Part shown: in pieces, positions 1,528 through 32,819 of the stretch
Layout of the letters: the number at the start of each line of letters is the position of its first letter
How positions within the stretch are numbered: the stretch's first letter is position 1
DNA from: Rhodobacteraceae bacterium HTCC2083
Lineage (GTDB): Bacteria; Pseudomonadota; Alphaproteobacteria; Rhodobacterales; Rhodobacteraceae
Assembly: GCA_000156115.1 (NCBI GenBank)
Contig: DS995276.1
Location: 934,017-998,016, forward strand
DNA: 64,000 nt
Reading direction: 5' to 3'
The notes under the pieces: model-generated
The model's database searches: none
The model's input: only the letters and a program-made list of their open reading frames with translations
What the model was told of the DNA's origin: nothing
Position numbers and translations under genes: made by a program

Positions 1528-2193
1528 GTGGGCGCGTTGGCAGAGCAAAGTGCAAAGCAACCGACCACCGTACGCGACAGGTTGCGTGCGCAGACCCGCG
1601 ACGTTCATGAACAACTGCATCATCATTCCACCTTCGTCGATCTGTTCAAGAACACCATTTCATTGGACGACTACAAAGCTCTCATTTTGCGGTTTTATGG
1701 CTTCTATGTTCCTCTGGAACGCGCGATTGAAAGAGTATTTGCAGGCATGAGTAATGACGCATCATCCTATTTCTACGAGACCCGGGCACATCATTTGAAG
1801 ATTGATCTGCTGGATCTAGGCTTCGATCCTTCCGAGATAAAAAACGCGCCACTGTGCGACGACGTCTTTGATGTGGTTTCAAAAACATCGCTTGGCGGTG
1901 TCCTTTATGTTATCGAAGGGTCCACACTAGGGGCCGCTCCAATCGACCGCGCAGCACAGCGTTTGCTAAGTGGAGACGTACTCGATGGACGACGCTTTTG
2001 GGCGTGGTGTAGATCCCAGAACAAGAACCGCTGGTCTTTGACCAACGACTACATCGAAACCTTGGAAGCAAATGGGGTCGCTTTTGGTCATCTCGCGAGA
2101 GGTGCCAATGATACGTTCCAAGCCTTGGCCGATTGGCTCGCCCCTATGGATCATAACAACGTAGCACTCGACACCCGCGAGGTTTTCGCGTGA
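1528..2193 (+). CDS. bphO: biliverdin-producing heme oxygenase (bacteriophytochrome-associated)
   Basis: A protein of up to 221 residues of the heme-oxygenase fold. It opens heme to biliverdin, the chromophore of the phytochrome encoded next. The proximal-histidine segment LRAQTRDVHEQLHHH (His27) and the family motif YVIEGSTLGAA (about residues 131-141) are visible. The stop overlaps the phytochrome GTG by 4 nt (GTGA), so the two are translationally coupled. Start uncertain: GTG at 1528 is served by GGTAAGGG upstream, while TTG at 1537 sits 8 nt after AAGGAG and may be the true start. It is unlikely to serve only iron scavenging given the coupling. Confidence 0.9.
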   Translation: MGALAEQSAKQPTTVRDRLRAQTRDVHEQLHHHSTFVDLFKNTISLDDYKALILRFYGFYVPLERAIERVFAGMSNDASSYFYETRAHHLKIDLLDLGFDPSEIKNAPLCDDVFDVVSKTSLGGVLYVIEGSTLGAAPIDRAAQRLLSGDVLDGRRFWAWCRSQNKNRWSLTNDYIETLEANGVAFGHLARGANDTFQALADWLAPMDHNNVALDTREVFA

Positions 2194-4481
2194 GTGATGC
2201 AGACCAAATCGATCTAACCACCTGCGATCAGGAACTCATCCACTTTATTGGAGCGGTACAACCTCATGGCGCTTTGATCGCTATCGATGCCAAGACCCAC
2301 ATCATCGACTACGTAAGCGAAAACACCGAGCACTTCGTTGGCTTCACTCCAGAGATGATCCTCGGAAAACCCCTGTCCTATTTGATTGGCGAGGAAAATT
2401 CCGCGCGCGCGCAGCAAATGTCGCTACAGCCATCTACGCCAGAACTGTTGAAACCTTGGTTCATTTCTTTCGAGCGCCCTAATGGAACAACGATCAACGC
2501 CGAATGCTTACCTCATGGCAATGACGGCCATGTCATATTCGAATTTTTCGAACCAGAACCGACGCCTGCCCCCGTGTGGGAGGACGAACTGTCCCGCCAA
2601 GCGGTGATTTCCGAACTGCTGAAACCCGGTGATCTAAACAATCTCGCCGATGCGAGCGCGCGTTTGATCCGCGATGTTATTGGCTTTGACCGGGTGATGA
2701 TCTACAAATTCGCAGAGGACAAGCATGGCGAGGTGATCGCCGAAAGCACCAGTCGTGATGACAGCTTTTTGGGCATGCACTACCCAGCCTCTGACATCCC
2801 TGATCCTGCACGACGTCATTTTACGTTGAACGTCATGCGATCGATCCCCGATATCAACAGTGACCGCGTCCCCATCGTGAGCCGATCTGGTCAAATTGCG
2901 GATGCGGACTCAGCCACGCCATTGGATCTCACCTTCTCTAAACTGCGCGCTGTGGCGCCGGTGCATGTGCAATACCTCAACAACATGGGTGTCAGCGCGA
3001 GCATGTCGATTTCTTTGGTTACCAACAATGAGCTTTGGGGGCTTGTGGCGTGCCATCATTATAGCAAACGCCTCATCTCTTCGAGCCGTCTGCGCTTTGC
3101 GGAACTGTTGGGGAGCACCACGTCAACTTTGCTTCAAAACCTGGAGAACACCGCGCAGTTGCGTACAGGTATTCAAGCCGAAAAGACTGCTTTCTATATT
3201 GAACAGCAAGTTCGTTCAGGTAGAGCATTGCGCGATCTGATCGAAGAACAAGCCTTAAAGATAATGACGCTGATTGATGTTCAAGGCATGTGTCTTGTTC
3301 TCGGGGGCGCAGTACTACACGTCGGCAAAGTTCCAAAAGAACTATTGGATTTCACCGTCTTTCGCGACGAATTGAATGAAGGCATTGCGACGACCGAGCA
3401 TCTGCCGTCGATTATAAAGATGAATGAGGACCAAAAAGAGTGTGCAGCTGGCGCCGCTCTCTTGGACTTGTCCGATGATGGTGAAGATTATCTGGTATTC
3501 TTGCGGCGGAGCTATGATCAAACGGTCAACTGGGCAGGCAAACCCGAGAAAATTGAAACCATCGACGAAAACGGGATTAAAAGGCTGTCACCCCGAGGGT
3601 CTTTCGCCCTCTGGAGCGAGGAGCGACGCGGCAAAAGCAAACCCTTTGATGCGATCATTCGCGATGCGCTGCGCATCCTCAGGCGCGCATTCTTTGCACT
3701 CAATAGCCTTGAACGCGAACGGATCGCGCTTGACGCCCAGAAACAAGCTGAAGCCGAGGAAATTCGCTTACGTCATGCATTGCTCGATGCAGCACGCGCC
3801 AACTCTCTGGGGGAACTCGCTTCCGCAATTGCACACGAATTAAACCAGCCGCTGTCAGCGATTGCGAACTACGTCAGCGCTTGCCGTCAAGAACTGCGCA
3901 ACGCCAATGTGACGATCCCAGAGCGTGCAGGGGTTTTGATCGAAGACGCAGTTATTGAAACCGAACGTGCCGGGGATTTGGTACGCCGCGTACGAGATTT
4001 TATCACGCGCGGCGATCTGAACACGGAATACATCGATCTAAACAAAGTGATCCAGCAAGGCGTCGATCTTGCATTAGTGACGTGCCAGTTGCCCGATCTT
4101 AAGGTCAATGTCCGGCAAGATCTGACCATTCCAAAAGTGCTCGCCGATCCAGTTCAAATTGGACAAGTCATGCTTAATTTGGCGCGCAATAGCATCGCTG
4201 CGATGAAACATTCTGACAATCAGGTCTTAACGATCGGCGTCACTCAGCAGACTGGGTTTGTCCAAGTGACTGTTTCAGATAGTGGCTCTGGAATTCCGGC
4301 AGACGTTGCAAAATACATTTTCGAGCCGTTTCACACCTCAACAACCAAAGGCATGGGAATAGGTCTGTCCCTATGTCGCTCAATCATCGAGGCACATTCC
4401 GGCAAGATTTGGTTTGAACCGTCCCAATCGGGCGCTATCCTCTCTTTCAAGCTCCCAATTTCGGAGAATGAAAATGGATAA
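2190..4481 (+). CDS. bphP: bacteriophytochrome sensor histidine kinase with FixL-like transmitter
   Basis: A 763-residue red/far-red photoreceptor. In order it has a PAS domain (about 15-120) with biliverdin-binding Cys12 in LTTCDQELIHFIGAVQPHG, and a GAF domain (about 140-320) with the PASDIP signature at 199-204. A PHY domain (about 325-510) follows with the tongue motif PRGSF at 468-472, then a coiled linker. The HisKA has phosphoacceptor His549 in AHELNQPLSAIANY, and the C-terminal ATPase has SDSGSGIP and GMGIGLSL. The kinase end resembles FixL rather than the usual phytochrome transmitter, matching the FixJ-type regulator that follows with an 8-nt overlap. The GTG start overlaps the heme-oxygenase stop. 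The protein is cytoplasmic with no membrane segment. Its position beside ppaA/ppsR suggests light control of the PGC; that is inference. Confidence 0.95.
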   Translation: MSDADQIDLTTCDQELIHFIGAVQPHGALIAIDAKTHIIDYVSENTEHFVGFTPEMILGKPLSYLIGEENSARAQQMSLQPSTPELLKPWFISFERPNGTTINAECLPHGNDGHVIFEFFEPEPTPAPVWEDELSRQAVISELLKPGDLNNLADASARLIRDVIGFDRVMIYKFAEDKHGEVIAESTSRDDSFLGMHYPASDIPDPARRHFTLNVMRSIPDINSDRVPIVSRSGQIADADSATPLDLTFSKLRAVAPVHVQYLNNMGVSASMSISLVTNNELWGLVACHHYSKRLISSSRLRFAELLGSTTSTLLQNLENTAQLRTGIQAEKTAFYIEQQVRSGRALRDLIEEQALKIMTLIDVQGMCLVLGGAVLHVGKVPKELLDFTVFRDELNEGIATTEHLPSIIKMNEDQKECAAGAALLDLSDDGEDYLVFLRRSYDQTVNWAGKPEKIETIDENGIKRLSPRGSFALWSEERRGKSKPFDAIIRDALRILRRAFFALNSLERERIALDAQKQAEAEEIRLRHALLDAARANSLGELASAIAHELNQPLSAIANYVSACRQELRNANVTIPERAGVLIEDAVIETERAGDLVRRVRDFITRGDLNTEYIDLNKVIQQGVDLALVTCQLPDLKVNVRQDLTIPKVLADPVQIGQVMLNLARNSIAAMKHSDNQVLTIGVTQQTGFVQVTVSDSGSGIPADVAKYIFEPFHTSTTKGMGIGLSLCRSIIEAHSGKIWFEPSQSGAILSFKLPISENENG

Positions 4482-5079
4482 AGACGCAGACAAATTCTCA
4501 ATCTATGTTGTTGAAGACGATGACGCCGTCTTAAGATCTCTGTGCGCACTTCTAATCGCGCATGGGTTTGAAACGGTTGCGTGTACCTCTGCCGAACAGT
4601 TTTTAGACCGCTACGACCCTGCCAAAAAAGCATTCATGATACTGGATCTGCGTCTCCCGGGGATGTCTGGACTTCAACTTCAGACGCATTTGAACGAGCT
4701 GAACGTCAAGATCCCGATTGTGGTTGTGACAGGGCATGGCGACGTGCCTATTGCAGTCCAAGCGATGCGCGCTGGAGCGGTTGACTTCATCGAAAAGCCT
4801 GCGCACGAGGACCGTATCCTCAAGGCTGTCGAAACCGCGTCGGGGCTACTGTTTAACAGGCGACCTGCGCTCGTTTCCAAAAAGATCGTCGTAGATCGAC
4901 TTGAAAAATTGACCGACCGCGAACGCGAAGTGTTGCATCACCTTCTGCTCGGTAAGTTGAACAAGGAAATCGCAAGTGAGCTGGACGTGAGCCAACGCAC
5001 GGTCGAAGGTCATCGCTCGCGTATTCGCGACAAGATGCAGGCGCGTGGGATCGCCGATCTCATTCGTATGGTTGGGTAG
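4474..5079 (+). CDS. FixJ/NarL-type response regulator (partner of the bacteriophytochrome)
   Basis: A 201-residue two-domain regulator. The receiver domain (about 10-125) has acidic residues EDD at 14-16, phospho-acceptor Asp58 in MILDLRLPG and the conserved Lys in IEKPA. A LuxR/FixJ-type helix-turn-helix (about 140-200) reads LTDREREVLHHLLLGKLNKEIA followed by VSQRTVEGHRSRI. The ATG at 4474 is 7 nt after GGAG; an ATG 6 nt earlier is too close to that site. It overlaps the kinase gene by 8 nt. It is expected to be phosphorylated by the phytochrome and to act as a DNA-binding activator. Targets are not known; see the palindromes at 5096 and 7783. Confidence 0.93.
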   Translation: MDKDADKFSIYVVEDDDAVLRSLCALLIAHGFETVACTSAEQFLDRYDPAKKAFMILDLRLPGMSGLQLQTHLNELNVKIPIVVVTGHGDVPIAVQAMRAGAVDFIEKPAHEDRILKAVETASGLLFNRRPALVSKKIVVDRLEKLTDREREVLHHLLLGKLNKEIASELDVSQRTVEGHRSRIRDKMQARGIADLIRMVG

Positions 5080-5494
5080 AACGAAACAGCGTATTAGTAC
5101 GTGCGTATTTATCCGAACTAGTGACAGCACTTAGACACGCTCTAGAGTTTCCCTGGCGGGATCGTCGAGACCCGTGTGTAGTTGTATGTCTTTGTCTATC
5201 TATTTTCGCCCTTTGCGGTGAATGGATGGCTTTTTACAGCGCTTCAAATCTGATTTGTCGAGAGTGGGGACCCTCGGCGTAGAGTGTTCGAAGAACCTGC
5301 GTAACGGCTTATTTCAGGAAACCAAAACCTTGCGTCGCACAACAACGCTCTCTGTATTTACCCGATTATAACAACATCTTAGGGTTAGCCGCCCTTTGAT
5401 TTGTCTTAAAGCGACACCGCACTAACGCGGTTGAAGTGAGTTGAAATTCGCCTTCACAAGGCGCGTGGACACAAGGACTTTGGAGGGATCGTAA
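5080..5494. other. 415-bp intergenic region between the phytochrome operon and ppaA
   Basis: No convincing reading frame was found here. The left end holds CGTATT repeats and the near-palindrome at 5096-5109. No intact TGT-N12-ACA box and no strong terminator were seen. The right end has a strong ribosome site for ppaA. The region presumably contains the ppaA promoter. Confidence 0.5.
5096..5109. promoter_or_regulatory. palindrome AGTACG-N2-CGTATT between the phytochrome operon and ppaA
   Basis: AGTACG-TG-CGTATT matches the palindrome upstream of ppsR (7783-7796) at 11 of 12 arm positions. A further CGTATT lies 14 bp to the left (5090-5095). It is a candidate site for the FixJ-type regulator or another PGC regulator; function is inferred only from recurrence and symmetry. 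Confidence 0.35.
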
Positions 5495-6340
5495 ATGTCC
5501 GGCAATAATAATTTGGCCAAACGCGGGCGCGCGCATGACGCGCTACACTTTGACGTGTATGCGCGCAGCAAAACGAATATTTCGCGACTCAAAGCGCGTT
5601 TGCCAGATGAAATTGTCGCGAATCTCGCGCGAGAAGTGATACGTAGGGTCGCCTCCAAAGCAAGTGAAGTCGAAAATGTTGTCGCCGTCCCAAGCCAGAA
5701 CACATTGGAAAAGCTGTCAGAGGCGCTGATTTCAAATGATGAACTTGCAGGTGCCAACCAAATTTTAGAACTGCGATCTGTGGGCCAAAGCGCCGAAGCG
5801 ATTTATCTGTCTCACCTCGCCGCTGCCGCCCGTCTCCTTGGTGAATGGTGGGAAGAAGACCGCATAGATTTCAATAAGGTGACTTTGGGAACCGGCCGTA
5901 TATTCTCGATAATGCGCGGGATGCGACATCTGTTTGAGGCCACGCCCATTACCCAACACAAGACCGCCCTCTTCGCGTCCACCCCCGGTGAAGATCACAC
6001 GCTCGGTGTGCGTATGGCCGCGGATCTTTTTCGCAAAGACGGCTGGGATATCACCCTTAAAGTGGGTTTGGATCATGACGCGTTGGTCGCAGAGATCGAG
6101 CAGTCAAATATTAGGATTATCGGCCTGTCCATCGGCGGCGAGCATTCTATCGAAGCGCTCATGAAGTTGGTCGTCGCGCTCACCATTAACTGCCCGCATG
6201 CCTCAATCTTTGTGAGCGGTCAAAACATTGAGAGCGTGCAATCGATCCTTGATCTCATGGAGCTCTCTGGCACCGGAAGCGACATTGTCAGCGCCAAGAA
6301 ACAGTTGAACGATCTTTGGGATCAGCACGCAACGGCTTAA
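5495..6340 (+). CDS. ppaA: PpaA/AerR-type SCHIC/B12-binding photosynthesis regulator
   Basis: A 281-residue protein with a cobalamin-binding-like (SCHIC) fold. The helical cap segment LGEWWEEDRIDFNKVTLG lies at about 115-132, and the Rossmann part carries PGEDHTLG with His168 at the position of the B12/heme axial ligand. Family members (AerR of Rhodobacter capsulatus, PpaA of R. sphaeroides) bind cobalamin or heme and modulate CrtJ/PpsR repression in response to light or redox state. GGAGGGA precedes the ATG. The gene is convergent with ppsR and their stops overlap by 4 nt. By sequence this is the more typical of the two SCHIC proteins beside ppsR. Confidence 0.82.
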   Translation: MSGNNNLAKRGRAHDALHFDVYARSKTNISRLKARLPDEIVANLAREVIRRVASKASEVENVVAVPSQNTLEKLSEALISNDELAGANQILELRSVGQSAEAIYLSHLAAAARLLGEWWEEDRIDFNKVTLGTGRIFSIMRGMRHLFEATPITQHKTALFASTPGEDHTLGVRMAADLFRKDGWDITLKVGLDHDALVAEIEQSNIRIIGLSIGGEHSIEALMKLVVALTINCPHASIFVSGQNIESVQSILDLMELSGTGSDIVSAKKQLNDLWDQHATA

Positions 6341-7749
6341 GTTTTGTTTACCAAACCATATTTGCGCAGTTTCACATAAAGTGACTGCCGCGACAGACCC
6401 AGCATCTCCGCAGCAGCGACACGGTTATTCGATGTCATCTCAACCGCAGTTTCGATGCACATCTTCTCGATCACATCTGTTGATTTCGCCACGATGTCTT
6501 TCAAAGAATGACCGCCAATCAGCTCGATCACCGAGCGCATATCAACCTCGGTAATTTGCTGCATCGGTGTGCGCACAGTCTCGACACGTCTGCTATCTCG
6601 CAAGATCATCGCAAAAACATGCGAGATACCCGCTTTTAGCAAAGTGGTCGAGATTTCTACCGCGCGCTCGCTGCCATGTTCACAGAGCACCTTTGTTGCA
6701 TAGAGGCGCATACTGCCCGTGCGTCGCGCGTTTTCAAGCATAACGTTCAAATCAACCGCGCCGCGGCTGAAGAAATCGATCATCGCACGCCCTTTCAAGC
6801 TTTGAGAATGCGTGACGTCAGTAAAGTTCAAGAACGCATCATTGGCGCTTAGGATTTGGCCCGCACCATCGACAAAAACAATCGGGTCAACGCCATGATG
6901 ATAAAGGTTCATAAGCTGGGATTGTAGCCGATCACTTGGGATATCTTGCGCGCTATCCGTGCTAATCTTGCACAGCAACATTGGGCCGTCGGCACCGCGA
7001 TAGAGGGTCGGCTTGATGCTTAGGTTCACTTTCTCGTCGGCGCTTTTGACGGCGACCACGGCGCGCAATTGTTCTGACGCAGCAGAGACCAGCTGATCAA
7101 CCAGATCACCCCTGCCCTTCGCTTTGAATTCCTGTGCAAAAAAAGCACCAATCAACACTTCACGATTTTTGCTGAACATCGTCTCAAAAGCAGCGTTGCA
7201 AGCGACAGTCTTGCCCGTGCGCACTGAAATGAAAGCCGTCGAGAGATCAGAAGATTCAAGCAAAACACGAAAGCGAAGATCATGTTCGCGCTGAGCTTCG
7301 TAATCGTTTTCCAACGCGATATGCGCGGCGACCAATTGTTGCTGAATTTCTGCTGTGGAACTTAGGTCATTGCCAAGCACAAGAAGCGTGTCCTTAGAGC
7401 CAGTTCGATGAAAGCTGTAGCGCACAGGGAATTCGGCGGTATTTTCAGACGCTACATGGTTCACCTGAACCGGTTGCACCGCTGTATCCTGCTCCAAAAA
7501 CTGTGCCAAACGGCTTTCGAATTTTGGGACTGATTCAACTGTCAGAAAATCTTGGATCTGGCGACCGACCCAAGATGTCATATCATCGAGCGCAGTGAGG
7601 CTCGCGCTTGATTGCGCGGCTTTGATCTGACCTGAGTGTGACACAACAAGGGCCAAGTCCGATATGCCAGATACAATGCCCGCAACAGCGTCCGGTGCGA
7701 TCGCTGGGATCACTCCGCCTGTCCAAGACATTTCACCATCTGACGTCAT
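6337..7749 (-). CDS. ppsR: PpsR/CrtJ transcriptional repressor of photosynthesis genes
   Basis: A 470-residue redox-responsive repressor that binds TGT-N12-ACA palindromes. It has an N-terminal PAS-like domain, a Q-rich linker near 135-150, two PAS domains (about 160-265 and 280-390) and a Fis-type helix-turn-helix at the C terminus (NNRVAAAEMLGLSRQSLYVKL). Cys431 sits at the start of the HTH helix, where CrtJ/PpsR have their redox-active cysteine, and Cys260 lies near the second one (251 in R. sphaeroides). Boxes matching its site are found before bchF, bchG, bchC, crtE/D and crtI/A. The gene follows a second SCHIC gene at 58 bp, with an AATACG-CA-CGTATT palindrome between. Confidence 0.96.
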   Translation of the reverse strand: MTSDGEMSWTGGVIPAIAPDAVAGIVSGISDLALVVSHSGQIKAAQSSASLTALDDMTSWVGRQIQDFLTVESVPKFESRLAQFLEQDTAVQPVQVNHVASENTAEFPVRYSFHRTGSKDTLLVLGNDLSSTAEIQQQLVAAHIALENDYEAQREHDLRFRVLLESSDLSTAFISVRTGKTVACNAAFETMFSKNREVLIGAFFAQEFKAKGRGDLVDQLVSAASEQLRAVVAVKSADEKVNLSIKPTLYRGADGPMLLCKISTDSAQDIPSDRLQSQLMNLYHHGVDPIVFVDGAGQILSANDAFLNFTDVTHSQSLKGRAMIDFFSRGAVDLNVMLENARRTGSMRLYATKVLCEHGSERAVEISTTLLKAGISHVFAMILRDSRRVETVRTPMQQITEVDMRSVIELIGGHSLKDIVAKSTDVIEKMCIETAVEMTSNNRVAAAEMLGLSRQSLYVKLRKYGLVNKT

Positions 7750-7782: not shown

Positions 7783-7796
7783 AATACGCACGTATT
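7783..7796. promoter_or_regulatory. perfect palindrome AATACG-N2-CGTATT upstream of ppsR
   Basis: AATACG-CA-CGTATT has perfect 6-bp arms around a 2-bp centre. It lies 34 nt before the ppsR ATG, in the 58-bp gap after the upstream SCHIC gene. A close match lies after the FixJ-type regulator gene (5096-5109) and a weaker one before heme oxygenase (1459-1472). It is a candidate operator linking the phytochrome system to ppsR. Confidence 0.4.
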
Positions 7797-7807
7797 TCTA
7801 CGCTCCT

Positions 7808-8767
7808 TTAAAGGGCGACCTGCCTGCACGGCAACCCCCGTAGGCCCAATTTTATAGCCTCTTGCCATTTATTAGTCGCGGCGTCAGCCCCTACCCTAGC
7901 GTTCAGGTCAGATTGGACGCTAAGAAGACTACCCCCGACAATAACATTCGACTGGTTTTCCCTATCGCGAGAGGCCTGCACGAACTGGCGCAGGCTCTCA
8001 ATGTTTTGACCAATTGACGCTGAGATCAGAACTGCTTGAAATTGCTCTGATTTGACGCGTTTGGACATATGTTCCGCACTTGCATCTAAGACCAATTTCA
8101 CCACCGCGCCTGCTTGGCGAAGCTGGGCGGCAAGCACAACGGCACCAAGTGTATGCTGCGCCCCTTCTGGGACAGCAACTAAGAAATTGCCAGACTGAGC
8201 AGTTTTGCGCAAAGGACGCTCTGCAAAAGACCGCTCTAGATGATGAACACAAGCTTGCAGCCGCGCGCATCCAATTGTGACGGTGCCAAACGATGCAGTG
8301 TCTTCAACCCAATCCTGGCCAAGCCTGCGTGCGGTCTTAGGCACGAGCACCGAAATGATGTCTTCGATTTTAACGTGTTTTAACTGGATCTCTTTGATAA
8401 CGCCCGTAATTTCATGCCGGTCAGACGACATCGACGCACCATAGAGACGTTTCACTAGTTCCTGAACGAATTCTGGGTCGGTGTGCAGATTGGGCTTAGG
8501 TTTTCGGGAGGCATGCTGATCGTTGGACGCCGCCAATACCGCAAGAGCGCGAATAGCAACGTCATCAACCTTGTTCAAAGGGCGCGGCAACACGGCCGTT
8601 TGATTCGAGATCACATCACCCCTCCGAAGGTTAGCAGCTTCAATCCCACCGCCCAAAATCGGAACAGATGGCGCTATCGTTTCGTATCGCGTCAAATATG
8701 TCAATAATTCATGACACTTTTGGGCATTTTCGCCAAAACTAACAGAAAACTCAAATTTCGCAGCCAA
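7808..8767 (-). CDS. second SCHIC/B12-binding-like regulator, upstream of ppsR
   Basis: A protein of up to 319 residues whose C-terminal two thirds resemble PpaA/AerR. A helical cap with LGQDWVEDTASFGTVTIG lies at about 149-166, then a Rossmann part with PEGAQHTLG (His205 as candidate cofactor ligand). The first 100 residues are not recognised, and no BLUF domain is evident. Its place, directly upstream of ppsR on the same strand and divergent from bchF, is that of aerR/ppaA in Rhodobacter, yet the sequence is the less typical of the two SCHIC proteins here. The start is unsure: no ATG is available near the N terminus, TTG at 8767 gives the length stated, and the ribosome site is weak. It shares its upstream region with bchF and thus the PpsR box at 8783. 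Confidence 0.72.
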   Translation of the reverse strand: MAAKFEFSVSFGENAQKCHELLTYLTRYETIAPSVPILGGGIEAANLRRGDVISNQTAVLPRPLNKVDDVAIRALAVLAASNDQHASRKPKPNLHTDPEFVQELVKRLYGASMSSDRHEITGVIKEIQLKHVKIEDIISVLVPKTARRLGQDWVEDTASFGTVTIGCARLQACVHHLERSFAERPLRKTAQSGNFLVAVPEGAQHTLGAVVLAAQLRQAGAVVKLVLDASAEHMSKRVKSEQFQAVLISASIGQNIESLRQFVQASRDRENQSNVIVGGSLLSVQSDLNARVGADAATNKWQEAIKLGLRGLPCRQVAL

Positions 8768-8855: not shown

Positions 8856-16610
<7,755 letters not shown>

Positions 16611-17276
16611 ATGACCTATGAGGCCACACGCACGCGCGTCGAAACCTATTTCGACAAGACCGCGACCCGCACATGGGAGCAGCTGACATCAGATGCGCCC
16701 GTGTCGGGCATTCGCGCCACTGTGCGTGCAGGACGTGATCGCATGCGTGATGTGCTGCTCTCTCAACTACCGCTTGATTTGCATGGTGCGCGCGTACTCG
16801 ATGCGGGCTGTGGCACGGGCACTTTGGCGTTTGAGTTGGCTAAGCGCGGTGCGGATGTGGTCGGCGTTGATATTTCACCGCAGCTTATTGGTATCGCACA
16901 GAAACGTCGCCCTGATCGTGTTGCCGGATCGCTCACATTCTCCGCAGGTGACATGCTTAATAAGCGTCTTGGTCTTTTTGATCATATCGTCGCGATGGAC
17001 AGTTTGATCTACTATACAGCTGAAGATGTTGGCCAGATTTTGGATGGGCTTGCGCCGCGTCTCAGCGGCAATATGGCATTCACTGTCGCACCGCGAACGC
17101 CTTTGTTGATGATGATGTGGCGCGCAGGAAAACTATTTCCACGCTCTGATCGCTCGCCCACAATGATCCCGCATCAATCCTTTAAAATCGCGGCTGCCAC
17201 CAAAGGCAAAATCCGCGAGATCGAACGTGTCTCATCCGGCTTCTACATCTCCCAAGCGCTGGAGTTCCGTGCATGA
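16611..17276 (+). CDS. bchM: Mg-protoporphyrin IX O-methyltransferase
   Basis: A 221-residue SAM-dependent methyltransferase that methylates the ring-C propionate of Mg-protoporphyrin IX. The SAM motif VLDAGCGTGTLAFELA is at about 63-78, followed by VVGVDIS. The N terminus, ATRTRVETYFDKTATRTWEQL, is typical of BchM/ChlM. It starts immediately after the bchL stop and overlaps lhaA by 4 nt. Its product is the substrate of AcsF, encoded later in the same operon. Confidence 0.96.
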   Translation: MTYEATRTRVETYFDKTATRTWEQLTSDAPVSGIRATVRAGRDRMRDVLLSQLPLDLHGARVLDAGCGTGTLAFELAKRGADVVGVDISPQLIGIAQKRRPDRVAGSLTFSAGDMLNKRLGLFDHIVAMDSLIYYTAEDVGQILDGLAPRLSGNMAFTVAPRTPLLMMMWRAGKLFPRSDRSPTMIPHQSFKIAAATKGKIREIERVSSGFYISQALEFRA

Positions 17277-18703
17277 TCGCGAGCAAGAACATCGTCAAAA
17301 GCATGACACTCAAGATGTTGCCGTTTGCGGATGCCGCAAGCGAGGGTTTGCCGCTGAGCCAGCTCTTGCGCCTCTCGCTATTTCAGATTTCTGTCGGCAT
17401 GGCGGCTGTCATGCTGCTGGGCACATTAAACCGCGTGATGATCGTGGAACTTTCAGTGCCTGCGATGATCGTGGCTTTGATGATCGCGATCCCCGTTTTG
17501 ATTGCGCCGTTTCGCGCGATCCTTGGGTTCAAGTCCGACAACTACCGCTCCGCAATTGGCTGGAAGCGGGTTCCCTACCTTTGGTTCGGCACGCTTTGGC
17601 AGTTTGGTGGCCTTGCGATTATGCCGATGGCTTTGTTGGTTTTGGCAGGCGATACCGCGTTGGATGCGGGCATGTTCGGCCAAGTCGCAGCGGCGCTTGC
17701 CTTCCTGCTCACAGGGCTTGGCATGCATATGACACAGACAGCAGGGCTTGCTCTTGCCGCAGATCGCGCATCAGAAGAAACGCGCGCGAAGGTCGTATCA
17801 CTACTTTATGTGATGTACTTACTCGGCATGGGAGTGTCGGCCGTCATAATCGGCACGCTGTTGCGCAATTACTCGGCGCTTTTGCTGGTGCAAGTCGTTC
17901 AAGGCGCGGCTGTGATGACCTTGGCTTTGAACATCATAGCACTCTGGAAGCAGGAAAAGCTCTCTCCCATGAGCCGTGAAGTTCGAAGTGCGCCCAAGCC
18001 AGCGTTCAGCGCCGCTTGGTCCGACTTCACCAACGAAAACAATGTGACGCGTTTGATCGTGACAATCTTCCTTGGAACGATGGCGTTCAATATGCAGGAT
18101 GTTTTGCTTGAACCTTACGGCGGTGAAATTCTGGGTCTGTCTGTTTCTGCGACGACATTGCTCACTGCGATGTGGGCAAGTGGTGCTTTGCTTGGCTTTG
18201 GCCTTGCTGCACGTTGGCTCTCGCTTGGAATTGACCCGTTTCGCATTGGGGGTCGCGGTGTGATTATTGGGATCGCTGCGTTTAGCGCGGTTCTGCTCTC
18301 TGCACCGATGAATTCACCCGTTCTCTTTTTTATTGGCGCTGCCCTTATCGGTCTTGGTGGCGGACTTTTTGCTGTTGCAACGCTGACCGCCGCCATGACG
18401 ATCGAAGTCAAAGGCGCTGCTGGTCGTGGCCTTGCGCTTGGCGTGTGGGGCGCCGCGCAAGCAACGGGCGCAGGCCTTTCGATTTTCGTCGGTGGTGCGA
18501 TCCGTGATCTGGTGAATACGGCGGGACAAAGCGGCGCTCTTGGCAGCGCGCTCACCTCCCCCTCCATCGGATATTCCGCCGTCTACCAGCTCGAAATCGG
18601 GCTACTGTTCATCACTCTCATCGCGCTTGGTCCTCTTGTTCGAGCCAAACCGCTTAACTCTTCAGAAAAACGCAGCCTCGAGCTGTCTGATTTCCCAACC
18701 TAA
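17273..18703 (+). CDS. lhaA: LH1 assembly protein LhaA (PucC family)
   Basis: A 476-residue major-facilitator-type membrane protein with about 12 hydrophobic segments. It belongs to the PucC/LhaA family (bacteriochlorophyll delivery), members of which assist LH1 and LH2 assembly. Family motifs include LNRVMIVELSVPA, an RxxxGFKSDNYRSAIGWKRVPY loop and MQDVLLEPYGGEILGLSVSATT. The position between bchM and puhA identifies it as lhaA rather than pucC. It overlaps bchM by 4 nt. A second family member (ORF428) lies at 26757. Confidence 0.94.
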   Translation: MIASKNIVKSMTLKMLPFADAASEGLPLSQLLRLSLFQISVGMAAVMLLGTLNRVMIVELSVPAMIVALMIAIPVLIAPFRAILGFKSDNYRSAIGWKRVPYLWFGTLWQFGGLAIMPMALLVLAGDTALDAGMFGQVAAALAFLLTGLGMHMTQTAGLALAADRASEETRAKVVSLLYVMYLLGMGVSAVIIGTLLRNYSALLLVQVVQGAAVMTLALNIIALWKQEKLSPMSREVRSAPKPAFSAAWSDFTNENNVTRLIVTIFLGTMAFNMQDVLLEPYGGEILGLSVSATTLLTAMWASGALLGFGLAARWLSLGIDPFRIGGRGVIIGIAAFSAVLLSAPMNSPVLFFIGAALIGLGGGLFAVATLTAAMTIEVKGAAGRGLALGVWGAAQATGAGLSIFVGGAIRDLVNTAGQSGALGSALTSPSIGYSAVYQLEIGLLFITLIALGPLVRAKPLNSSEKRSLELSDFPT

Positions 18704-18721
18704 ACCCCATAGGAGGCGACT

Positions 18722-19495
18722 ATGATAGGCATAGAATTTTTTGGAAACTTCGATCTCGCAAGTGCTGCGATTTGGATGTTTTGGATCTTTTTCGCACTGC
18801 TGATTTTCTATCTTCAGACCGAAAACATGCGCGAAGGGTATCCTTTGCAAGACGAAGAAGGCAACGCAGCACCCAACCAAGGGCCGTTTCCTGTGCCAAA
18901 TGACAAAACGTTCATTCTACCTGATGGCCGCGGTGAGTTGACTGTGCCCTCAGGTCAGCGCGGTGATCGTGATGATCTCGCACTTGAGCAAAGCGCGCGT
19001 GCTGCTGGATCCCCTTATATTCCAACGGGCAACCCAATGATTGATGGCGTTGGTGCCGCTGCGTGGGCCCCGCGCGAGGATCACCCAGAGCTAGATGCGC
19101 ACGGTCATGTGAAGATCAAGCCGCTCTCTAAGTTGCCTGATTTTGCCTTCTCTGCGGGCCGCGATCCGCGCGGCTTGGTCGTAATGGCGGGTGACGGTGA
19201 AATCATCGGACGCTGCATTGATATGTGGGTCGATGTACCAGAGCAATTGGTGCGTTTCCTGACGATTGATTTGAACCCTGAAGGATCGGGTGAGACACGT
19301 CTGTTGCCAATCAACTTCTGCCGGATCAAAGGCGATCACGTGAAAGTACGGGCGCTATACGGTACTCATTTCGCAGATATCCCCGGCACCAAGAGCGACG
19401 AGCAAGTCACGCTTTTGGAAGAGGAAAAGATCATGGCCTATTACGGTGGTGGCACGCTTTACGCGGACCCAAGCCGTTCCGAGCCATTGCTCTAA
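18722..19495 (+). CDS. puhA: photosynthetic reaction centre H subunit
   Basis: A 257-residue H subunit. A single N-terminal membrane helix (about 10-32, WMFWIFFALLIFYLQTENMREGYPL) is followed by a cytoplasmic PRC-barrel domain (about 140-245, with LPDFAFSAGRDPRGLVVMAGDGE). It caps the L/M core on the cytoplasmic side and shapes proton delivery to QB. GGAGG stands 6 nt before the ATG, stronger than neighbouring ribosome sites. An intercistronic hairpin follows at 19505, which fits the need for more PuhA than PuhB or PuhC. Confidence 0.97.
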   Translation: MIGIEFFGNFDLASAAIWMFWIFFALLIFYLQTENMREGYPLQDEEGNAAPNQGPFPVPNDKTFILPDGRGELTVPSGQRGDRDDLALEQSARAAGSPYIPTGNPMIDGVGAAAWAPREDHPELDAHGHVKIKPLSKLPDFAFSAGRDPRGLVVMAGDGEIIGRCIDMWVDVPEQLVRFLTIDLNPEGSGETRLLPINFCRIKGDHVKVRALYGTHFADIPGTKSDEQVTLLEEEKIMAYYGGGTLYADPSRSEPLL

Positions 19496-19504
19496 ACAAA
19501 GATC

Positions 19505-19540
19505 TGCCGGGCCTCTCGCCAGGGTTCGGCACCTATTTTT
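19505..19540 (+). terminator. hairpin with T run between puhA and puhB
   Basis: An imperfect stem pairs TGCCG and inner GGCCT with AGG and CGGCA around a short loop. Five T residues follow at 19536-19540. It is likely a partial terminator or 3' stabiliser that raises puhA mRNA over the downstream puhB, puhC and acsF genes. The stem has wobble pairs and a bulge. Confidence 0.45.
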
Positions 19541-19552
19541 GAGGGACTACAG

Positions 19553-20197
19553 ATGAATCACGACGACTTTAAATTTGAACCGATTCGCGGCCTTCCAGAG
19601 GAACTGCCAAGTGATGAGCAGATCCTTTGGCAGGGCAGCCCCAACGCGCTCCGTCTTGCGCGCGATGCGTGGGCGTTGAACTGGGTGATTGGTTATTTCG
19701 CCTTGCTGACGATCTGGCGCGTCGGCGTGTCCTCTGCGGATGTGCCGTTCACGACTGCTCTTCTGCACGGCGTACCATTCGTACTTGCTGGTGTCGTCGT
19801 GGCGCTATTGATTTACGCTATTGCTGCAATCCAAGCTCGCAGTACAGTTTACACGCTGACCAATAAGCGCGTGTGCATGCGCATTGGTGCAGCACTGACG
19901 ATGACCCTAAACCTGCCATATGTGTGCATCGCGAATGCACAAGCGGCTGCGCGCGCGGACGGAACAGGTACGATCATGCTTGAGCTGACGGGCGAAACGC
20001 GTCTGTCCTATCTTATGACATGGCCCCATGTGCGCCCTTGGCATATGCGCCGCACACAACCTGCGCTGCGCGCTATTCCCGAAGCCGCAAAGGTCGCCAC
20101 AATTTTCGCCGAAGCCGCAGAAACGCGTGTTTCCCAACCACAAGTCACACGCACGCAAGAGTTCGATCTTGACGCAGATGGCATAGCGGCGGAGTAG
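19553..20197 (+). CDS. puhB: photosynthetic complex assembly protein PuhB
   Basis: A 214-residue protein with a PH-like (bPH2) pattern. An N-terminal polar region containing LPSDEQILWQGSPN leads into two or three membrane helices (about 40-105), then a soluble tail. Family members help reaction-centre and LH1 assembly in Rhodobacter. It follows puhA by 57 bp and precedes puhC by 4 bp. Exact role is known only from mutants of relatives. Confidence 0.92.
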   Translation: MNHDDFKFEPIRGLPEELPSDEQILWQGSPNALRLARDAWALNWVIGYFALLTIWRVGVSSADVPFTTALLHGVPFVLAGVVVALLIYAIAAIQARSTVYTLTNKRVCMRIGAALTMTLNLPYVCIANAQAAARADGTGTIMLELTGETRLSYLMTWPHVRPWHMRRTQPALRAIPEAAKVATIFAEAAETRVSQPQVTRTQEFDLDADGIAAE

Positions 20198-32582: not shown

Positions 32583-32819
32583 TTACGTGAGCTGATTGAT
32601 CGCTGGATCGCTCAGCAGGTGCGAGAACGGGGTTGGATCTTCCGTTTCGCGAGACTCTTCTGGTAGCAACAAACCGATGCCTTGCAACGCAACGAGACTG
32701 ACCCAAATAACCAAGCAAAACATCATCGCGTAGCCAGCGCCCTTGAGCATCAAGAACGTAGCATCCGCGGTCAAGCGTGACGTGTTGCCAGTTCCCAGAT
32801 AGTCGTGATTATCACTCAT
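32583..32819 (-). CDS. pufX: PufX, LH1-associated core complex polypeptide
   Basis: A 78-residue single-helix protein directly after pufM. The helix is about 26-52 (LMLKGAGYAMMFCLVIWVSLVALQGIGLLLP). The KGAG element matches the start of the Rhodobacter PufX helix, but a full GxxxG dimer motif is not evident. PufX opens the LH1 ring to let ubiquinol leave. It replaces pufC, which many roseobacters carry at this place. GAGGAG precedes the ATG. The call rests on position, size and the MLKGAGYA match, since PufX is poorly conserved. Confidence 0.85.
   Translation of the reverse strand: MSDNHDYLGTGNTSRLTADATFLMLKGAGYAMMFCLVIWVSLVALQGIGLLLPEESRETEDPTPFSHLLSDPAINQLT

Follow-up and report, generated by a model that had tools for sequence, protein, structure and literature searches.

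Does a phytochrome at the edge of a photosynthesis gene cluster (PGC) pass light colour on to the pigment genes, and if so, by what route? The locus that raises this question lies in a stretch of 64,000 nucleotides (the window) of Rhodobacteraceae bacterium HTCC2083 (assembly GCA_000156115.1, contig DS995276.1), a Planktotalea-like genome whose nearest named locus (L002) comes from a Planktotalea metagenome-assembled genome with a phytochrome 93% identical. Genes for a heme oxygenase, a bacteriophytochrome and a FixJ-type response regulator form one operon here at the PGC edge, neighbours overlapping by a few bases (2190-2193; 4468-4481). We think it reasonably probable that the operon is a red/far-red two-component switch acting on the transcription of ppsR and of ppaA2, an additional gene for a B12-binding protein like PpaA/AerR. 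Gene order, domains, the FixL-type transmitter of the phytochrome, the linkage to the PGC and a conserved element associated with the module can be read directly from the sequence, and the features concerned are these:

1528-2193, plus strand: heme oxygenase, the putative biliverdin source (Pfam PF01126, 1.5e-13; the sole PF01126 match in the genome)
2190-4481, plus strand: bacteriophytochrome histidine kinase, 763 aa (PAS_2-GAF-PHY-HisKA-HATPase; the sole PHY match in the genome)
3738-4469, plus strand: FixL-type transmitter of the phytochrome, residues 517-760, with H-box His549 (NCBIfam FixL, PDB FixL, kinase tree)
4468-5079, plus strand: FixJ-type response regulator, receiver plus GerE/LuxR DNA-binding domain (Response_reg, GerE; receiver Asp present)
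5084-5134, plus strand: conserved FixJ-like element of about 40 bp, 3′ of the regulator gene and 5′ of ppaA2 (core CGTA-N4-TACG at 5090-5101)
5495-6340, plus strand: PpaA2, the additional B12-binding PpaA/AerR-like protein (Pfam PF02310)
6337-7749, minus strand: ppsR (TIGR02040, 378 bits against a cut-off of 275)
7788-7805, minus strand: second palindrome, 38 bp 5′ of the ppsR start codon (palindrome and matrix match)
7808-8767, minus strand: B12-binding ppaA/aerR in the standard ppsR-ppaA-bchF position (domain match, position)
8856-9344, plus strand: bchF, start of the bch block of the PGC (TIGR02020, over cut-off)

The sequence-only reading had described three overlapping genes forming one operon directly beside ppaA and ppsR. 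Coordinates, domains and overlaps agree with a single operon, and the overlaps together with the conserved order rule out a chance neighbourhood of three genes. Adjacency to ppsR stands as well, but the B12-binding neighbour at 5495-6340 is not the ppaA of the standard order, which is the gene at 7808-8767; the two products are 29% identical over 193 aligned columns.

A working chromophore pocket is marked by an N-terminal Cys and the PASDIP and PRxSF motifs. The phytochrome keeps them (Cys12 near the N-terminus, PASDIP, WAG, and PRGSF at 468) ahead of the H-box His549 (HELNQPL), and its Pfam domains are PAS_2 at residues 12-119, GAF at 148-309, PHY at 340-502, HisKA at 540-604 and HATPase_c at 653-757: a PAS_2-GAF-PHY photosensor replaces the haem-bearing oxygen-sensor domain of FixL. 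The FixL-like H-box that had been noticed earlier turns out to be part of a transmitter that is FixL-like over its full length. PDB FixL scores 1.1e-47 (166 bits) against 1.6e-11 for the best phytochrome kinase, and the NCBIfam FixL model matches residues 517-760, under its whole-protein cut-off. A tree of 51 kinase domains groups 13 members of the clade with L102, a distant phytochrome of genome G171 (99/94), and nests this group in a set of 37 rows (99/95) whose other 23 rows, taken from loci fetched for a FixJ-like regulator, are kinases beside such regulators. Nine other phytochrome kinases fall outside this FixL-type set, as do five stray kinases termed FixL-like merely by profile match; by tree and PDB scores, the transmitter is unlike those of other phytochromes. 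The clade also joins L102 in a photosensor tree of 64 rows, for which 40 of 80 “other” rows were kept (Shimodaira-Hasegawa-like approximate likelihood-ratio test 99; L102 sits on a long branch and the program calls its placement unsure). One old fusion of photosensor and FixL transmitter would be the simplest reading. A spacing of 81 residues separates PRxSF from the kinase His in 10 of 12 seed members; L102 and the truncated G123 protein (L051) share it, and in the other two seed members, L006 and L153, the H-box escaped the search pattern. This constant distance from tongue to His could offer a natural template for optogenetic design. At L102 (7633-10570) the phytochrome with its FixL-type transmitter and a FixJ-like regulator lie off the PGC, flanked by a Crp-like gene and pqq-like genes (PQQC-family, radical SAM/SPASM).

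The regulator has the full LuxR-type output (Response_reg plus GerE) ascribed to it earlier. Its start was listed mechanically as TTG 4414, with ATG 4468 or 4474 likelier, and among PDB entries 1yio (styrene-type regulator-like) and FixJ score alike.

How far does this arrangement extend, and does it keep to PGCs? A search of genome contigs gave 19 loci, 10 of them with full-length relatives at 55-93% identity. Two candidates per genome were scored in surveys of the class (385 genomes), which added one relative (G540, 56% identity), and of the phylum (369 genomes), in which no candidate besides the window exceeded 34%. The 11 close relatives so defined belong to Rhodobacterales and Rhizobiales; the regulator is directly downstream in all of them (12/12 with the window), and the heme oxygenase is directly upstream in eight. 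None was found upstream of the phytochrome in L006 and L009, and that of L008 is an N-terminal scrap (E 0.23) adjoining a C-terminal part, the middle seemingly lost (9627-9962). The proposed link to PGCs is upheld: PGC genes lie within the stretch read in 10 of the 11 (in L004, ppsR and ppaA only), the exception being L006. Wide occurrence of the triad away from PGCs had been named as the finding that would speak against the proposal, and what the surveys returned is one close relative in 11 (L006) plus the distant, unlinked G171/L102 pair. A search for plasmid-borne relatives in PLSDB gave none that was close (four records at E<=1e-60, best identity 36%). Two loci have features of their own: L006, with no PGC gene in the stretch read, encodes a B12-binding protein upstream of the phytochrome where the heme oxygenase is expected (8881-9570), and in L004 ppaA2 and ppsR stand about 6 kb apart (14013-20171), with genes for a sensor kinase and a tripartite tricarboxylate transporter in between.

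Within the family the arrangement is as rare as had been supposed. Among 394 genomes from 393 genera, the PHY domain occurs in 71 and PpsR in 167; a phytochrome adjoins ppsR in the window genome (G000) and in G123 only (2/394, among the PpsR places listed and the stretches fetched), and that of G123 is truncated. The DNA around 80 of 81 PHY matches was read (all except G051:C2, some with only 1.5 kb of flank), and three carry a FixL-type transmitter: G000, G123 and G171. A search with the regulator matched 73 of the 394 genomes at E<=1e-30, and the four matches above 50% identity (G000, G123, G370, G045) all adjoin ppaA2 and ppsR. The controls were 40 ppsR loci of roughly 19 kb each (755,632 bases), from genomes hand-picked rather than drawn at random among the 167 with PpsR: bchP is in the stretch read for 35 of them, and both the regulator and a second PpaA-like gene are absent at E 1e-8 from 40/40. 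In three control loci (L187, L198, L199) the single gene at the standard ppaA position is closer to PpaA2 than to the window's ppaA. Rhodobacterales loci with the regulator, photosensor-less ones included, have a second B12-binding PpaA-like protein 3′ of it, and in a PpsR tree the proteins of nine module-bearing clusters form one group on a long stem, as if PpsR had changed along with the module.

The sequence CGTA-N4-TACG is common to seven of 15 intervals between regulator and ppaA2, several of which are near kin; the best such palindrome in 30 mononucleotide shuffles reached three. Aligned on the palindrome, about 40 bp are conserved, the palindrome being followed by GTGGTAaATCCGaACTATCT; a CTA resembling a -10 box lies beyond. 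The exact core is absent from the 755,632 bases of the 40 regulator-less control loci and has two occurrences in the 64-kb window, where 0.20 would be expected. Across the window genome RCGTA-N4-TACGY has seven places (48 for the pattern read backwards): two in 23S rRNA copies, three within long open frames and two intergenic, and these sole two intergenic sites lie 3′ of the regulator (ppaA2) and 38 bp 5′ of ppsR. Six post-regulator sites and two ppsR ones served to train an 18-bp matrix, which places a site just 3′ of the regulator in 11/11 non-redundant Rhodobacterales loci; the five post-regulator sites outside the training set score 12.0-18.1 versus at most 11.4 in the 40 control loci, which yield 17 matches at 9 or more. 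A second model, R1, was built from sequence only in 13 loci, and its E-values are, by the tool's own account, rough. R1 matches just 3′ of the regulator in 14/14 module genomes outside genus g46, 13 of them in the model and one held out (G798, the genome of L007; E=4.7e-4, 80 bp 3′ of the regulator); its best matches in 13 module-less genomes are 0.086 (G171), 0.51 (G300) and 0.64 (G188, two). Folding the window copy as an RNA hairpin gave nothing beyond chance (z 0.87), and the PpsR motif TGT-N12-ACA is absent from 14/15 intervals, with three in L012.

Does the element look like a FixJ site? ACGTAG is the second FixJ site class. It occurs in the elements of L006, L008, L010 and L153 and 103 times in the control loci, so it is weak evidence in those four. 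FixJ motifs in print include GTACGTAG and GTAMGTAG, and also GTAGTTTCCC; GTACGTAG is exact in the elements of L007 and L009 and has 0 occurrences in the 755,632 control bases. A conserved element after the regulator together with the palindrome 5′ of ppsR makes a role in the PGC more likely. Just 3′ of the element, four loci encode a small protein family (L153 5664-6017, L007 13097-13375, L009 8767-9003, L010 13050-13220) whose hosts are three Rhizobiales members and one Roseovarius; it is ribbon-helix-helix-like by eye and reaches no Pfam cut-off, and a profile search of all loci, the window included, returned L007, L009, L010 and G540 and, as its only other match, a weak one in L116 that is unlinked.

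Some lineages have lost the putative light sensor. In G123 the phytochrome's photosensor is truncated: on one contig (L051 10125-11342) a start resembling heme oxygenase continues in frame into the phytochrome near residue 397, a fusion by which PAS and GAF are gone while the kinase and regulator frames are still open. The heme oxygenase part is short, and its score against the L003 heme oxygenase was equalled by 1/500 shuffles. G370, which belongs to the window's genus, has the regulator adjoining ppaA2 and ppsR, lacks a heme oxygenase and a phytochrome upstream of it, and gives no PHY match anywhere in its genome; inspection by eye of three frames 5′ of the regulator revealed no kinase remnant. 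In its regulator, read by eye, Pro occupies the second position of the acidic pocket, and the conserved Thr is displaced. In genus g46 the regulator is present in five of 20 genomes, many of them incomplete, and no phytochrome is kept; tspO lies 5′ of it in 4/4 copies with enough sequence (orphan regulator loci L101, L163, L164, L165). The phospho-acceptor Asp is Glu in four of the five g46 copies, the fifth being cut by its contig at the site. Ratios of nonsynonymous to synonymous substitution rates of 0.10-0.18 (five pairs computed) indicate that this orphan regulator is maintained. The PpsR tree places G370 with the window (99) and the g46 genome G045 elsewhere (86), which favours separate losses of the photosensor; the regulator tree joins the orphan regulators weakly (59/73) and is compatible with one origin.

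Putting these observations together, we tentatively propose, at somewhat less than even confidence, a natural circuit of heme oxygenase, phytochrome-FixL and FixJ wired into the PGC and controlling ppaA2 and ppsR through a FixJ-type element, from which two lineages, perhaps independently, lost the photosensor and kept the regulator (once with a fixed Asp-to-Glu change that may mimic the phosphorylated state), and in which a third kept the kinase with its chromophore-binding domains deleted: a natural experiment that removes light from a light circuit. If this is true, natural strains whose light sensor is missing or blinded make light's share in PGC control directly testable.

The switch itself would work as follows. 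The heme oxygenase would supply biliverdin to the phytochrome, whose photosensor would set the balance of kinase and phosphatase activity in the FixL-type transmitter; the phosphorylated regulator would bind the element just 3′ of its own gene and activate ppaA2, and in the Planktotalea-like genomes (window, L002, L063) and L012 it may also act at the palindrome 5′ of ppsR. Light colour would thereby feed into PpsR/PpaA control of the pigment genes. Photochemistry, phosphotransfer, binding of the regulator to the element and activation rather than repression are predictions from sequence. AerR and CrtJ are the PpaA and PpsR of Rhodobacter capsulatus. AerR is described as a cobalamin-binding photoreceptor that modifies CrtJ action (PMC6199135). 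The HELNQ of the window phytochrome keeps the H-box Glu and Gln to which kinase and phosphatase activities were assigned in YF1 (PMC6798134). The two possible signs of the light effect are close to evenly balanced; pREDusk, an engineered circuit built from these parts, shows lower net kinase activity in red light (PMC9594775, PMC11164954).

Several observations weigh against a light switch of this kind. Loss of the photosensor in some lineages means that light input is dispensable there. The regulator's best NCBIfam family is FixJ, at 199.6 bits versus an equivalog cut-off of 255. The element is uneven across the clade: the Rhizobiales loci L007, L009 and L153 yield no match to the 18-bp matrix of 9 bits or more (and L163 and L165 yield none), the elements of those three Rhizobiales loci were first spotted by eye, with L007 also found by R1, and R1 has no match at E<=1 in 4/4 g46 genomes, where the element is degenerate. 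Weak R1 matches occur elsewhere in module genomes (E 0.015-0.57), and the matrix score of G045, 12.0, is nearly equalled (11.7) at an unrelated place in that locus. The window's own element has neither GTACGTAG nor ACGTAG, and the ppsR palindrome was seen only in the window, L002, L012 and L063. Regulator and ppaA2 are unevenly spaced, at about 0.2-0.5 kb, and the next gene after the Rhizobiales element is the small protein rather than ppaA2.

A phytochrome near ppsR could also control PpsR by binding directly to it, in the manner of RpBphP1 and PpsR2, with the FixJ-type regulator secondary. A ppsR-like gene stands divergent beside the operon in L153, L007 and L009, and a second ppsR lies further on in L153/L154 and L007, as in Bradyrhizobium and Rhodopseudomonas clusters (PMC10569730, PMC6899989). 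RpBphP1, however, is without kinase output, whereas the phytochrome here has HisKA and HATPase_c and, with its regulator downstream, keeps the FixL-type kinase in 12/12 loci; the window genome has one PpsR match at E<=1e-20 rather than the two ppsR genes of the BphP1-PpsR2 system, and in G370 and g46 the regulator persists where the phytochrome is gone. We regard direct contact as improbable. The sensor might instead report redox or oxygen, the phytochrome fold being a mere carrier: FixL itself is an oxygen sensor, and LH4 synthesis in R. palustris is mainly redox-responsive though BphP2/P3 are required (PMC6879726). Retention of Cys12, PASDIP and PRGSF, and of a heme oxygenase directly upstream in the window and eight of 11 close relatives, argues for light, and a redox or oxygen input seems to us quite unlikely.

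The two-component switch must further be set against readings in which the regulator has other, or unassigned, targets. The module could sit beside the PGC through history and mainly control other genes, as L006, whose stretch read lacks PGC genes, and the G171 pair beside pqq-like genes might suggest; linkage in 10 of 11 close relatives, across different PpsR lineages, and the genome's sole two intergenic core sites at ppaA2 and ppsR leave this with only a small chance of being right. It is unlikely, too, that the element serves as a transcript end or as the site of some other factor, which would leave the regulator's targets unassigned. The element is just past the regulator stop codon in each of 14 genomes, and its link to the regulator is one of co-occurrence and of a FixJ motif in some relatives; the window copy's chance-level fold and the lack of TGT-N12-ACA in 14/15 intervals speak the other way, as do GTACGTAG in two relatives and the alteration of the element in g46, where the regulator is altered too.

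Among known systems, pREDusk and pNIRusk (PMC9594775, PMC12582566) share the order and logic: a heme oxygenase, a phytochrome photosensor joined to a FixL transmitter, and FixJ. They are laboratory fusions, whereas the operon described here is natural, lies in a PGC, and has its own conserved element and the putative targets ppaA2 and ppsR; if our reading is true, evolution combined these parts in the very order that synthetic biologists used. FixLJ itself shares the type of transmitter and regulator, and its published motif with some relatives' elements, and differs in having a haem-bearing oxygen sensor in place of the phytochrome photosensor. A phytochrome in a PGC with two ppsR genes was already known from Bradyrhizobium and Rhodopseudomonas. 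BrBphP and RpBphP1-PpsR2 resemble our case in the phytochrome's place near ppsR, but RpBphP1 ends in PAS/HOS without a kinase and binds PpsR2 directly, in contrast to the kinase and DNA-binding regulator found here. R. palustris BphP2/BphP3 and LhfD (Rpa3017) likewise pair phytochromes with a cognate response regulator and affect light harvesting; LhfD, unlike our regulator with its DNA-binding domain, is described as a phosphate sink dispensable for the low-light response (PMC6879726). LdaP of Dinoroseobacter shibae also brings light to PpsR in a Rhodobacterales PGC, but as a LOV-protein antirepressor that binds PpsR rather than as a two-component system (PMC12654162).

Little has been written on how red light might reach the pigment genes of marine aerobic phototrophs. 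In the available text of a 2025 review blue-light sensors dominate, and phytochromes are named only for Bradyrhizobium and a Methylobacterium (PMC12654162); neither “phytochrome” nor “bphP” appears in the main text of an article covering 105 Rhodobacteraceae genomes (PMC6052148). We found no description of a natural phytochrome-FixLJ operon, or of a phytochrome in a Rhodobacterales PGC, in the open PMC literature, subscription papers and preprints being outside that scope.

The rest of the PGC is in view in the window. Family models confirm puhA, pufL, pufM, bchH, bchZ and tspO, and the remaining PGC genes were read from the list of open reading frames; a 78-aa frame adjoining pufM (32583-32819, minus strand) looks PufX-like by eye. 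Just outside the operon, at the PGC border, lies a gene for (S)-ureidoglycine aminohydrolase (483-1319).

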